Of a DNA stretch of 64,000 nt, positions 7,202 through 57,356 are shown piece by piece (positions within the stretch are counted from its first letter, which is position 1; each line of letters opens with the position of its first letter). Source of the stretch: Marinitoga lauensis (GTDB lineage: Bacteria; Thermotogota; Thermotogae; Petrotogales; Petrotogaceae). The notes below the pieces were generated by a model that saw only the letters and a list, made by a program, of their open reading frames with translations, had not been told where the DNA came from and searched no databases. Made by a program: the position numbers and the translations under genes. The stretch lies in assembly GCF_004135675.1 (NCBI RefSeq), contig NZ_QHLX01000003.1, positions 62,001 to 126,000 of the forward strand, in the 5' to 3' direction.

Positions 7202-8408
7202 TTAAAAGTAAGCTTCTTCTCCAAATTCTGCTTTATCAAGACCCTCTATTTCGGCTTCTCCGCTAACTCTAATAGGAGTTATTTTATTTATTAACCATAA
7301 TGCTACATATGTAAAGATGAAAGCATAAATTGAAACCGATGTCACAGCAATAAATTCTTTCCAGAAGAAGGTAGCATTACCATAAAATAATCCATTAGCT
7401 CCATTGGCATTTACAGCTTTTGTTGCAAATAATCCTAATAAAAGGATACCAAGGTAACCACCTACACCGTGAACACCCATACATCAAGTGCATCGTCCCA
7501 TCCTTTTTTATTTTTATAAAAAACAGCAGCATAACTGACAATTGAAGCTATTATTCCAATTAGCATTGAAGATTGTATAGTAACGTATCCAGCAGCTGGT
7601 GTAATAGTTGCTAATCCTGCAACAGCACCTGTTAACATACCTAAAATTTTTGGTTTCTTTTCAAAAATTACAGCTAAAATTAACCATGTTATAGCAGCAA
7701 AAGAAGCAGCAACATCAGTATTTAAAAATGCGTTAGCAGTTACAGCATCTACTCTTAATTCGCTACCAGCATTAAAGCCATACCATCCAAACCACAATAA
7801 ACCTGTTCCTAAAGCAACAAGAGGGATACTATGAGGCTTTGTGTTTGCATTTTTCCTTTTACCCACAAAAAATACCGAAGCTAAAGCGGCTGCTCCAGCA
7901 CTTGCGTGAACAACGATTCCTCCTGCAAAATCTAAAACTCCCCATTTTTGGAATAAACCTCCACCCAAACCATATGAACTAAAGGAAAATAAACAAAAAT
8001 CAACCAAACAGTTAAAAATAACATGTATGCTTTAAATTTTACCCTATCGGCAAAAGCACCGGTGATAAGAGCAGGAGTTATAATAGCAAACATCATCTGA
8101 TAGGCTACGAATACAATCATAGGGATACCTGTATTAGCACCGAATGGAGTTGTAACGGAAATTCCATGAAGGAATAAATATTTTGAATTACCAATTATTC
8201 CACCAATATCATTACCAAAACTCATAGTAAAACCGAATATTACCCATAAAATGGTAGTCCATCCCATAGAGACAAAACTTTGCATCATAATAGTCAAAAC
8301 GTTCTTTCGACTAACCAATCCTCCATAAAAAAATGCAAGACCTGGAGTCATAAGCATTACCAAGCTTGTGGCAAGTAACATGAAAGCTGTGTTGCCGGTA
8401 TCAAACAT
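7202..8408 (-). CDS. amtB: Ammonium transporter (AmtB family), two frameshifts
   Basis: Three consecutive minus-strand pieces make one Amt channel of about 400 residues. The N-terminus (FMLLATSLVMLMTPGLAFFY) holds the first helix signature and is followed by GGLVSRKNVL and the gate region (QMMFAIITPALITGAFADR). After a shift at about 7990 come DFAGGIVVHASAGAAALAS and WFGWYGFNAGSEL, and the third piece begins HGVGGYLGILLLGLFAT. The pore histidines are in VVHASAG and VHGVGG, and about 11 helices are expected. It imports NH4+/NH3 at the membrane. No glnK/glnB follows, because the gene ends at a terminator. The shifts are near 7990 and 7470. Confidence 0.9.
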
Positions 8409-14528: not shown

Positions 14529-14759
14529 AGTTTTTAGTCAAAGTACAAAATAAAATACTCAAATAATATTCGCTCATCCGGTGAAAATTCATATTCCTCA
14601 AAAATGTTCATTCCCACCGGTCGCTCAAACTCACATCCTTGTTCGGTTTCGCTCAATTTTGCATCCGTGCAAAATTGACCGGTTCCATTCACATTTTTTC
14701 GGGAATTTTCAAGGATTCGCTCATATTATTTTTTCTTATTTTATTTTGTCAACAGTCTG
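14529..14759. repeat. Inverted-repeat element C, flanked by duplicated terminators
   Basis: The left end (AGTCAAAGTACAAAATAAAA, AATAATATTCGCTCATCCGG) and right end (GGATTCGCTCATATTATT, TTATTTTGTCAACAGTCTGA) are long imperfect inverted repeats. The interior is a further nested palindrome: CAATTTTGCA-TCCG-TGCAAAATTG at the tip and ACCGGTC / GACCGGT lower down. The whole unit can therefore fold into one long hairpin. It closely matches element D at 30326-30556. There is no ORF inside. Confidence 0.75.
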
Positions 14760-52858: not shown

Positions 52859-53577
52859 ATGTATGTTTATGGCAGAAATGTATTAAAGGAAATAATAAAT
52901 GCCAGATATCCAGTGAAAAATATATATTTTACTGATAGCAAAAAAACAGATAAAACATTAAATAATCTAATTGAATTAGCTAAAAAAAATAATTATTCTT
53001 ATTCATTTGCGCCAGATAAAGTGTTGCAGAGAATGGTAAACATATCAAAACATCAAGGTGTGGTAATTGATATTGGTAAAGAATTTCAATATGCAGAGGA
53101 AGATATTATTGATAATTTAAAAGAAAATGCTACAATTATTATTTTAGACCAGCTACAGGATCCCATAATTTTGGAGCAATAATCAGATCTGCTGTTGCGT
53201 CAAATAGCGATTTAATTGTAATTCCAAAAGATAACTCAGTAGAAGTTACTTCTACTGTAATCAAGGTTTCTGTGGGGTTGGCTTTTAGAATTCCTATTTT
53301 AAAGGTTACCAATTTATCAAGATTTATTGATATGATAAAAAAAGAGGGATTCTGGGTATATGGTGCAGATATGAGTCATAATGTTTATTATGAAATGGAT
53401 TTAACAGGAAATGTAGCATTGGTTATGGGAAACGAGGGTAGCGGAATTAGAGAAAAAGTAAAGTCTAAATGCGATGCTTTGATATCAATTCCAATGGCAA
53501 ATAATGTTGATTCTTTAAATGTTTCTGTAAGCGCAGGAATATTGCTTTTTGAAATATTTAAGCAAAAAAGCAGGTGA
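52859..53577 (+). CDS. rlmB: 23S rRNA 2'-O-methyltransferase (TrmH/RlmB family), frameshifted
   Basis: The N-terminal substrate-binding part begins MYVYGRNVLKEIINARYPVK. The SpoU knot motifs are split over frames: LDQLQDPHNFGAIIRSA (one base missing near 53163), VALVMGNEGSGIREKV and ISIPMANNVDSLNVSVSAGI. The second break is near 53265. It uses S-adenosylmethionine to methylate a ribose, probably G2251 of 23S rRNA. It lies between mrnC and mutL with minimal spacing. Confidence 0.9.
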
Positions 53578-53581
53578 AAAA

Positions 53582-55468
53582 ATGGCTATAGTTAAGTTAC
53601 CAGAGTCTGTTATTATGAAAATAGCGGCAGGTGAAGTTGTTACAGGTACTTTTGCTGTTGTAAAAGAATTATTTGAAAATGCACTTGATGCTAGTGCGGA
53701 TAATATTACAATAGAAATAAAAGATGGAGGAAAAACATATATAAGAATTACAGACAATGGTATAGGAATGTCTGAAGAGGATATTCTTTTAGCTGTTCAA
53801 CCACATACAACCAGTAAAATTAAAAATGTTGAAGATTTATATTCAATACATACTTATGGATTTAGGGGAGAAGCTTTAGCTGCTATTTCCAGAGTTTCGA
53901 GAATGAAGATTATTTCAAGAAAAAGTGATGAAGATATCGCTACTTCTATAGAATTTGTAGGTGGAGAACCAATAAATATAAAAAAAGTTGCTGCTTCAAT
54001 GGGAACAACAATTGAAGTAAGGGATTTGTTTTTCAATGTTCCTGCAAGGAGAAAATTCTTAAAGTCAGCTGCAGTTGAAGGAAGAATGATTACTGAAATT
54101 ATAGAAAAGTTTATTTTAGCTACTGATGTTTCAATAAATTATATAAAAGACAATAAATCTATTTACTCAGTAGCAAAAGATATGGATTTGTTGGAGAAGA
54201 TAAACATTATTTTTCCAGAAACTTCAAAAGAAGATTTTTTTGAAATTAATTTTGAAGAAACATGGTTTAAGATTAAAGGATTTATATCTCATCCTAGAGT
54301 AACAAGAAATAATAGAACTGCTCAAATATTTTTTATAAATAATAGATATATTCGTTCAGGTGATTTATTTGCCGTTTTTGAATCGGGTTATGGTGAAATG
54401 CTTGAATCAAGAAGACATCCGTACGGAATTGTCTTTTTTGATATAGATCCCAAAGAGGTTGACGTTAATGTACATCCGCAAAAACTGGAGGTTAAAATTT
54501 CTGAATCAAGAATTATATATAACAAATTTAAGAGGTTAATAAGAGAAACACTTATAAATCAAACAAAATTTAAAATGGCTATTAATATTCAAGAAGATAG
54601 TCAAATAATATCGAAGAATATTTATGAAAAAAATGTGTATAGAAATGATGCTGAAAAATCTAAAAATATACAGGAAACGAATATCCCAAAAGTTTTTGAA
54701 AATGAAGAAAAATATAATACTTTTATGATAAAAGGAAAAAAGGAAAGTGTGGAAAAGAAATCATTACCATTCCAAAATAACCCATCTCAAAAAAGAATGG
54801 AAATTAATAAAATTGCAAAAAATATAATTGATACCAATAAATATGTAAAACCTGAAATAAAAAAAGAAGAAAAAACTTTAGATTTAAGTTATTACAAAAT
54901 ACTTGGATTAGTAGCAAATAGATATATAATACTTGAATTAAAAAATTCTATACAATTTATAGATTTCCACGCTGCTCATGAAAGGGTTATTTATGAAGAT
55001 TTAAAAAGAGAATTCTTCGAAAATGGAAATATTACAACACAGATGATGATGTTACCAATAAAATTGAATCTGGATGCTATAAGAAAAGAAATTTTAGAAA
55101 ACAATATTGATAGAATTAGATCACTTGGTTTTGAGGTTGTTAAAAATAATAATGAATACTATATATCCGGAATGCCGTCAAATATTAGAATCAATGATCC
55201 TCAAAATACTATTATAGAAATACTGGATGAATTAAGATTAGAAGGTATAGAATCTCCTGAAAAAGTGTTTGAACACGCAATTGCTACTATGTCTTGTAGA
55301 GCAGCAGTTAAAACAGGTGATGATCCTGTAGGATTAGAGACGCTAATTTCAAAAATTATAGAATATGAAATTTTAACCTGTCCTCATGGACGCCCTATTT
55401 CAATGGAACTACCCATAAAAAAATCGATGAGTTTTTTGAGAGAACTTGACATATCAAAAAAAATATAG
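53582..55468 (+). CDS. mutL: DNA mismatch repair protein MutL
   Basis: 628 residues from ATG 53582. GHKL ATPase motifs: ELFENALDASA, ITDNGIGM, TYGFRGEALAAIS; FFNVPARRKFL and VDVNVHPQKLEV mark the transducer domain. The C-terminal domain has DFHAAHERVIYEDL, matching the DQHA(X)2E(X)4E endonuclease motif except Phe for Gln, plus SCRAAV and CPHGRP, so an active nicking MutL is expected. Its last codons contain the -35 box of the downstream asparagine attenuator promoter. It overlaps no other gene and is intact. Confidence 0.95.
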   Translation: MAIVKLPESVIMKIAAGEVVTGTFAVVKELFENALDASADNITIEIKDGGKTYIRITDNGIGMSEEDILLAVQPHTTSKIKNVEDLYSIHTYGFRGEALAAISRVSRMKIISRKSDEDIATSIEFVGGEPINIKKVAASMGTTIEVRDLFFNVPARRKFLKSAAVEGRMITEIIEKFILATDVSINYIKDNKSIYSVAKDMDLLEKINIIFPETSKEDFFEINFEETWFKIKGFISHPRVTRNNRTAQIFFINNRYIRSGDLFAVFESGYGEMLESRRHPYGIVFFDIDPKEVDVNVHPQKLEVKISESRIIYNKFKRLIRETLINQTKFKMAINIQEDSQIISKNIYEKNVYRNDAEKSKNIQETNIPKVFENEEKYNTFMIKGKKESVEKKSLPFQNNPSQKRMEINKIAKNIIDTNKYVKPEIKKEEKTLDLSYYKILGLVANRYIILELKNSIQFIDFHAAHERVIYEDLKREFFENGNITTQMMMLPIKLNLDAIRKEILENNIDRIRSLGFEVVKNNNEYYISGMPSNIRINDPQNTIIEILDELRLEGIESPEKVFEHAIATMSCRAAVKTGDDPVGLETLISKIIEYEILTCPHGRPISMELPIKKSMSFLRELDISKKI

Positions 55469-55474
55469 TATAAT
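55446..55474 (+). promoter_or_regulatory. Promoter of the asparagine attenuator/synthetase transcript
   Basis: TTGACA (55446-55451) and TATAAT (55469-55474), exactly 17 bases apart, a perfect sigma-A consensus. The -35 box and spacer lie in the last codons of mutL. Confidence 0.92.
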
Positions 55475-55504
55475 AGAAAAAAATTATTATAGGTGGTGTA
55501 ACTT

Positions 55505-55582
55505 ATGATAAAAATAATTTCAATAAAATTTAATAATTTCAATAATAATAATATCAACCAGCGTTGGTGTAACGCGAGGTAA
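55505..55582 (+). CDS. Asn-rich attenuator leader peptide (25 residues)
   Basis: ATG 55505 is six bases after GGTGGTG, about 30 bases from the promoter. The peptide is MIKIISIKFNNFNNNN followed by INQRWCNAR and a TAA at 55580. Eight of 25 codons are Asn, six of them within eight codons. The coding end overlaps the 5' arm of the antiterminator. Codon content, size and location are those of an amino-acid biosynthetic leader peptide whose translation senses charged tRNA-Asn. It is too short to appear in routine gene calls. Confidence 0.88.
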   Translation: MIKIISIKFNNFNNNNINQRWCNAR

Positions 55583-55610
55583 ATCTTCGTTTACAATTCA
55601 CCGGCGCTGG
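55558..55610 (+). promoter_or_regulatory. Antiterminator pairing of the Asn attenuator
   Basis: CCAGCGTTGGTG (55558-55569) can pair with CACCGGCGCTGG (55599-55610) over 12 bases, using two G-U pairs. This is mutually exclusive with the terminator because both use 55601-55610. The 5' arm lies just after the Asn codon run, so a ribosome stalled at those codons leaves it free, while one reaching the stop codon covers it. Confidence 0.82.
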
Positions 55611-55637
55611 AAGATTTTATACCAGCGCCGGTTTTTT
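55601..55637 (+). terminator. Attenuator terminator
   Basis: Perfect 10-bp GC-rich stem CCGGCGCTGG / CCAGCGCCGG, 11-base loop, followed by TTTTTT. It lies between the leader peptide and the asparagine synthetase gene. Confidence 0.93.
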
Positions 55638-55713
55638 ATTTGAAAATATTAGGGAGAGGGAGAGATTTATATATTATTTTATAAATATATTATTTTTGAA
55701 GGGAGAGGGTATT

Positions 55714-56671
55714 ATGGCTAAAAAATTGGCAGAAGGAAGAAAAGTTGATACTGTAGAATTAGTGAAGGAATATTTGGAAAACTCTGTTTTTAAGGATGCA
55801 ACATTAATTCAACATGAAATTTTAAAAGGTATAAGGAAGATTTTGGATGAAAAAGGTTTTGTAGAGTTGTTACCGGTAACTGTTTCACCTATTACTGATC
55901 CATTAAACCATCCACATTTTGAAGCAGAATTTGAATACTATGGGCAGAAATATTCTGTAACAAAATCCATGATTTTACACAAACAGGTTGCAGTATTGGT
56001 TCATAAAAAAATATATATAGTATCACCAAATGTTAGGCTTGAAACAGAAGATAAAATGGATTCAGGAAGGCATTTATTCGATTTTGTCCAGATTGATATG
56101 GAAATGTTAGAATCAAGCAGAGAAGATGTTTTTGATGTTATGGAAGATGCTATTATATATACAATAAAAACAATAAAAGAAAAATATCCAGAGATTATTA
56201 GTAAATATCATCCAACATTAAAGATCCCACCAAACCATTTAAACGATACACAGTTAAGGAATTAAAAGAAAAATATGGAAATGATTATGAGAAAAAAGCA
56301 TCTTTAGAAGCAGAAGAACCATTCTGGATGATAGATATTCCTCTATTAGAAAGAGAATTTTATGATAAGCAGGATCCAGAAAGACCGGATGTATTACTGG
56401 ATTTTGACCTTATATATCCAGAAGGCTATGAAGAAGCTATTTCTGGTGGAGAAAGAGAACATGAATATGAACAAATATTAAAAAGGATGGAATTAAAGAA
56501 AACACCACCAGAACAATTTAAAGATTATTTAGAAGTGGCAAAAGCTGGAATTTTGAGGCATTCTGCGGGTTGTGGAATAGGTATAGAAAGATTTACACGA
56601 TGGATACTTGCATTGGATCATGTTGAAAAAACAAGGCTATTTGCCAAAACCCAGGAAAACACTCTATATAA
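55714..56671 (+). CDS. asnA: Archaeal-type asparagine synthetase A (AsnRS-like), frameshifted
   Basis: The start is ATG 55714, six bases after GGAGAGGG. The protein is a class II aminoacyl-tRNA-synthetase catalytic core without an anticodon-binding domain. VSPITDPLNHPHFEAEFEYY, the motif-2 like NVRLETEDKM, HLFDFVQIDMEM and the motif-3 GCGIGIERFTRWILALDHV are present. Such stand-alone AsnRS paralogues in archaea make asparagine from aspartate. The Asn-codon leader peptide upstream supports that function over tRNA charging. Missing bases at about 56230 and 56651 break it; corrected, it ends FAKTPGKHSI at 56671, just before a terminator. Confidence 0.85.
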
Positions 56672-56678
56672 ATTATTA

Positions 56679-56707
56679 AAGCGGACTTTTGATTTAAAAG
56701 TCCGCTT
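56679..56707. terminator. Bidirectional terminator after asnA
   Basis: Stem AAGCGGACTTTT / AAAAGTCCGCTT, loop GATTT; it overlaps the stop of the minus-strand response regulator. Confidence 0.87.
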
Positions 56708-57356
56708 ATTCTATAGTGCACGTTCCACCAGCATTTTTAATTTTCACTACTATATCATTTAATGATTTTTTTATTATTTCCTTTTTTTCATTTTCATCAA
56801 AATATGAAAATACTATTTTTAATGGTTTGATAATCAACAAGCTATCTATAATGTTATTTAATTTTTCTATAGTTCTCCCATTTAGTTTTTTCTTTATTCG
56901 TATTCTAAGAACACCATTATCATTTATAATATCAACAAAATTTTCTCTTTCATCAGTCTTTTTATAAAGTGACCTGATTTTAGAAATTTTAATTCCTGAA
57001 TTAATAACTTTATTAAGAGCTTTTTTCATTTTTTCCTGAGTTAATGGTTTTATAATAAAATAATCTGCTCCTAACTGCAAAGCATTAAAAATATCTTTCT
57101 TATTGTTTGTCACACTAATTATAATAACTTTTGAATTTGGGAATTTCCTTTTTAAAGCTTTTAATGCAATCATTCCATTTATTTTTTTCAAAGCAAGATC
57201 AAGTGTAACAATATCAGGATTTAGAAACGCAAATTTTTCAAGAACTTCAGAGCCGTCATCTATTTCACCAACAATTGTATGTCCTAAATTTATCAGAATT
57301 TTTTTTATTTCATTACGTATAAGTGCATTATCTTCAACTATTAATATTCTAGACAT
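56706..57356 (-). CDS. Response regulator with receiver and STAS-like output domain
   Basis: 216 residues, intact. The receiver (1-120) begins ILIVEDNALIRNEIKKIL and has the acceptor Asp in PDIVTLDLAL, a T/S in VIIISVT and the Lys in YFIIKPLTQEKM. The C-terminal ~80 residues (GVLRIRIKKKLNGRTIEKLN, then PLKIVFSYF and NAGGTCTIE) follow the strand-helix pattern of a STAS domain, not a DNA-binding domain. It is the last gene of the Sia-like operon and is preceded after 33 bases by the Hpt/HATPase kinase, its likely partner. It may switch protein partners rather than bind DNA. Confidence 0.78.
   Translation of the reverse strand: MSRILIVEDNALIRNEIKKILINLGHTIVGEIDDGSEVLEKFAFLNPDIVTLDLALKKINGMIALKALKRKFPNSKVIIISVTNNKKDIFNALQLGADYFIIKPLTQEKMKKALNKVINSGIKISKIRSLYKKTDERENFVDIINDNGVLRIRIKKKLNGRTIEKLNNIIDSLLIIKPLKIVFSYFDENEKKEIIKKSLNDIVVKIKNAGGTCTIE

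Follow-up and report, generated by a model that had tools for sequence, protein, structure and literature searches.

A putative transcription attenuator reading asparagine codons upstream of the asparagine synthetase gene AS-AR in Marinitoga lauensis and other Thermotogota

A stretch of 64,000 nucleotides (nt) from Marinitoga lauensis (contig NZ_QHLX01000003.1, positions 62,001 to 126,000 of the forward strand; hereafter the window) carries AS-AR, a gene related to those of asparaginyl-tRNA synthetases (AsnRS), downstream of a short open reading frame (ORF) rich in asparagine (Asn) codons and of an intrinsic terminator. Does translation of this short ORF decide whether AS-AR is transcribed, as the initial annotation of the sequence had proposed? 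The data gathered below from the window and from related genomes suggest that the leader very probably attenuates transcription by means of a ribosome, in response to the level of charged tRNA-Asn.

The leader of AS-AR and its two exclusive stems

All of the parts described by the initial annotation, i.e. a promoter, a ribosome site, an ORF of 25 codons including eight for Asn, a terminator and an alternative pairing of 12 bp, were found where it had placed them, on the + strand of the window. The promoter is of the sigma-70 type (55446-55474; 12/12 matches to consensus) and consists of TTGACA (55446-55451), a 17 nt spacer and TATAAT (55469-55474), as read from the sequence. It overlaps the 3' end of the preceding gene, which terminates at 55468 and is mutL by reading. 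Among 17 promoter-like sites found in the region 54800-57200, this is the only perfect match. A Shine-Dalgarno-like AGGTGG (55491-55496, read directly) lies 8 nt 5' of the ATG of the leader ORF (55505-55582), which starts at 55505, stops at the TAA 55580-55582 and encodes MIKIISIKFNNFNNNNINQRWCNAR. Six of its eight Asn codons are found within codons 10-17, and the control region (55532-55558) includes the Asn codons 10, 11, 13-16 and 18.

Three arms, delimited by folds and pair counts in the case of arm A, account for the alternative structures. Arm A (55558-55569), located in the final codons of the leader, is the 5' arm of an antiterminator helix of 12 bp whose 3' arm is arm B (55599-55610). 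The positions 55600-55610 of arm B also serve as the 5' arm of the terminator, which pairs with arm C (55622-55632) in a stem of 11 bp closed by a loop of 11 nt, so that the antiterminator excludes the terminator through this common segment. The stem is followed by a T-tract, read directly, of which five residues (55633-55637) are unpaired; the run includes six T (55632-55637), the first of them being paired within the stem. A simple terminator scan reported no site, its loop limit being 8 nt and the loop of this terminator 11 nt.

A comparison of the two folds, suggested by the initial annotation, confirmed that they are mutually exclusive; folded alone at 37 °C, the terminator has -22.2 kcal/mol and the antiterminator region 55556-55611 has -27.1 kcal/mol. 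A ribosome modelled at the stop codon, where it blocks 55562-55592, allows the terminator but not the antiterminator to form. With a ribosome modelled at the Asn codons and a transcript that stops at 55611, it is the antiterminator that forms.

The same geometry was found in the 47 leaders from Thermotogota that were measured (see the next section). In all of them, the final Asn codon of the run begins 2-13 nt 5' of arm A, and the stop codon begins at -2 to +26 nt relative to the first base of that arm. The footprint of a ribosome extends about 15 nt on either side. With a stop codon placed in this way, a ribosome at the beginning of the Asn run therefore leaves arm A free, and a ribosome at the stop masks it wholly or partly, in line with the stall and stop positions invoked by the initial annotation.

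Combined, these features lead to the following model. The leader would be transcribed by an RNA polymerase closely followed by a ribosome. A shortage of Asn would make Asn-tRNA scarce, and the ribosome would stall in the Asn run, just 5' of arm A. The free arm A would then pair with arm B, thereby blocking the terminator and allowing transcription of AS-AR. When Asn is available, the ribosome would reach the leader stop and mask arm A wholly or partly, and the terminator would be expected to form. Stalling, termination and the response to Asn are predictions drawn from the arrangement of the sequence.

Conservation and covariation of the leader

A search of 103 Thermotogota genomes with the first 173 amino acids (aa) of AS-AR (E-value below 1e-30) identified 49 AS-AR places in 48 genomes. 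The upstream regions of all 49 were examined, and one (L035) was excluded as it starts too near the end of its contig. An Asn-codon leader precedes AS-AR at all 48 testable places. One of these leaders (L012, genome G035) was absent from the 420 nt upstream of the gene and was located about 560 nt upstream by a covariance model (R1, see below); the measurements of codons and arms cover the other 47.

In the stretch near arm A that is delimited by the first and last Asn codons, these 47 leaders contain 192 AAT, 62 AAC, one AAA and no AAG, with 35 other codons interspersed. Asn thus accounts for 254 of the 290 run codons, each run starting and ending with Asn by construction. As AAT and AAC are kept while AAA and AAG are nearly absent, it is Asn that is conserved and not a repeat of bases. 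The reading frame of the leader is kept across the 47 loci, with synonymous changes, and each leader has 2 to 9 Asn codons near arm A (median 6). In an enrichment control, an ORF of 10-60 aa was retained if one amino acid took up at least four of 8 codons and if a hairpin and a T-tract came after it. This control detected the Asn type in 38 of the 48 AS-AR upstream regions, the next amino acid being Ile (11/48), and in only one of 724 tiles of 420 nt taken from 44 other loci; these tiles are mostly coding DNA and hence an imperfect control.

The devices fall into two sequence classes, class A (Marinitoga and its relatives) and class B. Class A was aligned for 19 loci (alignment A3) and class B for 28 of the 30 rows collected (alignment A4; L043 and L050 were omitted as near-duplicates), two of these rows being from genomes titled Caldisericum. 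In class A, 98.0% of the cells are paired in the terminator and 90.4% in the antiterminator; cells with double changes number 22 in the former, for a mean of 6.8 in shuffled alignments (none of 500 as high), and 9 in the latter, for a mean of 2.9 (1/500 as high). In class B, 95.9% of the cells of the terminator and 87.9% of those of the antiterminator are paired, with 14 (4.2 shuffled) and 63 (24.0 shuffled) double-change cells, respectively, neither value being reached in 500 shuffles. Control stems slid along the alignments pair 9-53% of cells versus 88-98% for the true stems. Arms picked by hand in class B (29 rows, L023 being omitted) gave 91.4% pairing for A:B (88.9% shuffled) and 98.7% for B:C (94.0% shuffled), 0/500 as high in both cases. 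Thus, the search for compensatory changes that the initial annotation had called for revealed numbers of double-change cells above shuffles in both stems of both classes. Its proposal of a ribosome-mediated Asn attenuator is therefore supported by the Asn codons, by both stems and by their compensatory changes, since homologous loci have retained the run of Asn codons (48/48 testable places) together with the two stems.

Leaders were also searched outside of Thermotogota, in named genomes scanned with protein set A2 (best 80 of 366 relatives kept), the titles of which mostly designate metagenome bins and may be wrong. Asn leaders precede AS-AR by about 110-170 nt at 11 loci (L103, L127, L129, L139, L143, L145, L147, L154, L162, L168 and L171). 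Eight of them are titled Aminicenantes, of which seven have at least four Asn in 8 codons, three being read in the eighth (L139); the others are titled Acidobacteriota, Clostridiales and 'uncultured bacterium' (one each). Most of these leaders end in NVPF. Directly 3' of the Asn codons, all 11 loci carry a hairpin GTCC(C/A)C...GGGGAC, which is weak in L171 (-5.9) and spans the stop codon in 10/11, the exception being L127, where the ORF runs on past the hairpin. The terminator filter of the scan found no terminator at the ten flagged loci among these 11, and such terminator-less leaders of the Aminicenantes type are possibly Rho-dependent.

A complete class B device was found in two loci titled Caldisericum (L151 and L158). 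The class B covariance model (R2, see below), when searched in nine non-Thermotogota genomes, matched only two, both titled Caldisericum. Three other loci from Caldisericaceae or Caldisericales (L096, L097 and L115) were not flagged by the scan, nor were any of ten loci from Bipolaricaulota or Acetothermia, one of which (L114) offers merely 90 nt of upstream sequence. Among 32 AS-AR loci with archaeal titles, only L148 reached the threshold for Asn codons, and it did so without a terminator.

AS-AR and other genes preceded by the device

What does the gene controlled by this leader encode? AS-AR matches the NCBIfam family NF005054 'asparagine synthetase A', as do all seven proteins of set A2. 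An intact relative (L010) scores 470.7 bits for a cut-off of 309, and the 173-aa N-terminal piece from the window scores 188.2 bits, under the cut-off, as it is a fragment. The closest solved relative is an archaeal asparagine synthetase A (PDB 3p8t; phmmer E-value of 2.5e-59 with L010), which we take to be from Pyrococcus abyssi. Archaeal enzymes of this family presumably make Asn from Asp, ammonia and ATP. The initial annotation had deduced from the leader that the gene makes Asn, and the family match and the similarity to 3p8t point in the same direction: AS-AR would be an AsnRS-derived asparagine synthetase producing Asn from Asp, ammonia and ATP.

A genome of the same genus (G039) encodes separate aspartyl-tRNA synthetase (AspRS) and AsnRS genes, as identified with NCBIfam. 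All seven genomes of the genus carry the same four kinds of PF00152 place, of which the AsnRS one and AS-AR are each split in two in the window genome (G000, whose draft assembly of 18 contigs totals about 2.6 Mb). Another genome of the genus, G042, includes a contig that matches the plasmid of Marinitoga piezophila KA3 without any difference over the 6,000 bases compared. Since the genus has an AsnRS, tRNA-Asn can be charged from free Asn, and charged tRNA-Asn should therefore report free Asn. In the window, the 5' part of AS-AR spans 55714-56265 and its 3' part, in another frame, 56205-56654 (PF00152 match at G000:C12:118205-118654), both on the + strand, the frame being broken near 56240 in the draft and intact in relatives. 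This break is likely an assembly error because other genes of the same draft are also broken. Besides AS-AR (55714-56654), the genes found in two frames in the window are 52859-53577, rRNA methyltransferase-like by reading, and 7477-8387 (amtB), which suggests indel errors in the draft. Elsewhere in the window, the TwoAYGGAY RNA of Rfam was matched at 14578-14725 on the - strand (45 bits for a gathering score of 43).

Other asparagine synthetases are found in a minority of the AS-AR genomes. A strong PF00733 (AsnB-type) match (E-value of at most 1e-30) was detected in 19/48, and AsnA (PF03590) matches only two of the 103 genomes, G018 and G006, the former being an AS-AR genome that lacks a strong PF00733 match. 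AS-AR is hence the sole asparagine synthetase found in 28 of the 48 genomes, some of which are incomplete drafts. No Asn leader with a terminator was detected upstream of the 30 listed PF00733 loci (L062-L091, including weak matches); two of these places were flagged, neither for an upstream leader, as the signal is on the opposite strand in L089 and downstream of the match in L077.

In order to find the device independently of AS-AR, covariance models built from class A (R1) and class B (R2) were searched in the 103 genomes. R1 matches 21 genomes (E-value up to 0.001), 20 of them at AS-AR. The remaining one, G054 (L189), is without a close AS-AR match; its match is weak (45 bits) and concerns a leader that is not Asn-rich, located before an ATP-binding cassette (ABC) transporter ATPase gene.

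A second R1 match lies between gltD and amtB-PII in five of the six genomes of g6, which are Petrotoga-like (L184-L188); the sixth (G051) has no amtB match. In G048 (L191), GltD is 506 aa long, the TIGR01317 match covers its residues 3-493, and NNNNN occupies positions 494-498; the genes that follow match Ammonium_transp and P-II. The gltD tail ...EYLISSNNNNNKQRRLKTL is common to all five genomes, the full length of gltD having been checked in G048. As the Asn run lies beyond the TIGR01317 match, in an in-frame tail, the control codons are the 3' end of gltD itself.

R2 matches 32 genomes (E-value up to 0.05), and the matches with an E-value of up to 0.001, present in 28 of them, were followed. 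It identified an attenuator with an Asn-codon leader before the glutamine synthetase gene glnA in G008, G010 and G100 (L203, L204 and L205). The search also returned loci with other downstream genes. In G019 (L202, about 990-1082), an Asn leader (DNNNNNRPGSVG) with a class B attenuator precedes a gene for an uncharacterised protein of 589 aa, which shows only a weak phosphoenolpyruvate (PEP) carboxykinase-like match. In G005 (L206), a leader with His codons (WHHHH) and a terminator are found before a hisZ-like gene (below the cut-off) and hisG; from its sequence, this locus is a predicted His attenuator in Thermotogota. G021 (L207) has a leader containing, by reading, several aromatic codons; this leader and a hairpin resembling that of an attenuator precede a branched-chain amino acid transporter-like gene (below the cut-off).

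Matches to glnA were found in 96 genomes and to amtB in 27, and 58 listed loci (L208-L265) were scanned for Asn leaders. Seven were flagged: L219 (glnA of G100), L245-L249 (amtB of the five g6 genomes) and L210. The leader of L210 (NINININ), which is without an attenuator, was taken as a chance occurrence, leaving six that are real by reading. The glnA and amtB loci of the window genome itself (L208, L263 and L265) were not flagged for an Asn leader. Furthermore, G045, G052, G101 and G018 have a glnA match on the strand of AS-AR and no more than about 2 kb downstream of it; in these genomes, the Asn leader may control both genes.

Weighing of the interpretations and comparison with known systems

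Several observations weigh against an attenuator reading Asn. Nine of the 47 leaders (L032, L042-L047, L049 and L050) have merely 2-3 Asn codons near arm A, eight of these nine belonging to genus g12. One of five measures of antiterminator covariation, the count of pairs with double changes in class B, does not exceed that of shuffled alignments (6 versus 6.2; 412/500 as high). For 'further pair types', three structures lie weakly above shuffles (28, 56 and 102 of 500 as high), unlike the fourth (475/500). The structures were written from single sequences (L001 and L042), which favours the figures for paired cells, and the arms used in the hand-picked class B count were chosen by eye. For loci ill-served by the automatic picker (e.g. 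L016, L027, L044-L047, L049 and L050), arms were set by hand or by motif. In addition, the minimum-energy fold of the full transcript contains the terminator whether the ribosome is stalled or absent, and at 65 °C both structures are nearly equal (-13.5 and -13.3). As the equilibrium fold keeps the terminator with or without the Asn region blocked, the switch has to work kinetically, like those of known attenuators.

Three other explanations have to be considered. In this AT-rich region, the hairpin comes soon after the end of mutL (by reading) at 55468; the AAT run could then be a microsatellite and the hairpin merely the terminator of mutL, without any regulation. A simple AAT repeat combined with an upstream terminator was rejected on the basis of codon statistics, AAC being found 62 times in the runs versus AAA once and AAG never. 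Moreover, a perfect promoter separates the end of mutL from the hairpin, the alternative stems covary, and the unit formed by the leader and the attenuator is also found at other genes, which makes this explanation extremely improbable. T-boxes for Asn genes exist in Firmicutes, so that a T-box or another RNA directly sensing tRNA-Asn or Asn might be imagined here, the ORF being incidental. The T-box covariance model is in Rfam, and none of the 4227 families of Rfam 15, including the leader families for other amino acids, matches the window leader at its gathering score; the three sub-threshold matches are microRNA families (E-values of 0.38-0.87). As the frame and the Asn codons of the leader are conserved in addition, a direct RNA sensor appears very improbable.

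A leader attenuator could also report general nitrogen starvation or a slowing of ribosomes, Asn-tRNA being a mere proxy. This would be consistent with the finding that some genomes also carry the device upstream of glnA and in the interval from gltD to amtB-PII, but AS-AR is the constant target and run codons are overwhelmingly Asn, even if the ends of runs are so by construction. The sequences only partly distinguish specific from general sensing, and the general version is considered unlikely. The best reading of the sequences is that an attenuator sensing charged tRNA-Asn would operate throughout the AS-AR-bearing Thermotogota and that, in some lineages, the same device would also control nitrogen assimilation (glnA and amtB-PII) as part of a small nitrogen regulon. 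We also lean, with less assurance, toward a broader view in which Asn-tRNA charging would be a signal of nitrogen status in Thermotogota. One family of switches would act on AS-AR throughout and would have been recruited to glnA and to ammonium transport and PII, its sensing codons being grafted onto the 3' end of gltD in Petrotoga-like genomes, and a terminator-less form would exist in Aminicenantes.

If such an attenuator operates, asparagine would join the amino acids read by leader-peptide attenuation, in a mechanism conserved across a deep-branching and largely thermophilic phylum, whose stems must function at high temperature. The leader would also provide regulatory support for the production of Asn by bacterial AS-AR. 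The copies at glnA and gltD/amtB-PII suggest that a translation-based gauge of Asn helps run nitrogen assimilation. In Petrotoga-like genomes, ribosomes finishing the full-length GltD would decide the fate of the next genes, and sensor codons in the tail of a gene for a full-length enzyme would be an unusual design.

The initial annotation considered such an attenuator to be undescribed, and no asparagine attenuator was found in the literature searched, among the matches listed, although this does not prove its absence from print. Its list of classical attenuators (His, Trp, Leu, Thr, Ile/Val and Phe) agrees with two sources. One lists attenuators for the trp, his, leu, thr, ilv and pheA operons (PMC1183508). 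In the other, those for His, Leu, Thr and Trp are given as Rfam families and Ile/Val and Phe are named besides, and 11 Thermotogales genomes are listed (PMC3766115). Thermotogae are mentioned merely in passing in the available part of PMC4833913.

As described in PMC1183508, the enteric attenuators (trp, his, leu, thr, ilv and pheA) resemble the device of Thermotogota in their control codons for the amino acid produced, their intrinsic terminator, their exclusive antiterminator and a stop codon at which the ribosome, on completing the leader, can cover the antiterminator arm. The device differs from them in that it would read asparagine, targets an AsnRS-derived synthetase, has its antiterminator arm within the final codons of the leader ORF, lacks any Rfam match and is found here in Thermotogota and in two genomes titled Caldisericum. 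The Asn leaders of Aminicenantes can be compared to the Cys leader peptides of Mycobacterium cys operons, in which codons for a single amino acid also follow one another close to the stop and no terminator hairpin is evident (PMC1262725). They differ from these by the amino acid, the gene and the phylum, and by a hairpin that is conserved where the leader ORF ends. Finally, unlike the archaeal asparagine synthetase A (3p8t), the AS-AR of Thermotogota is bacterial and lies behind what is very probably an attenuator.

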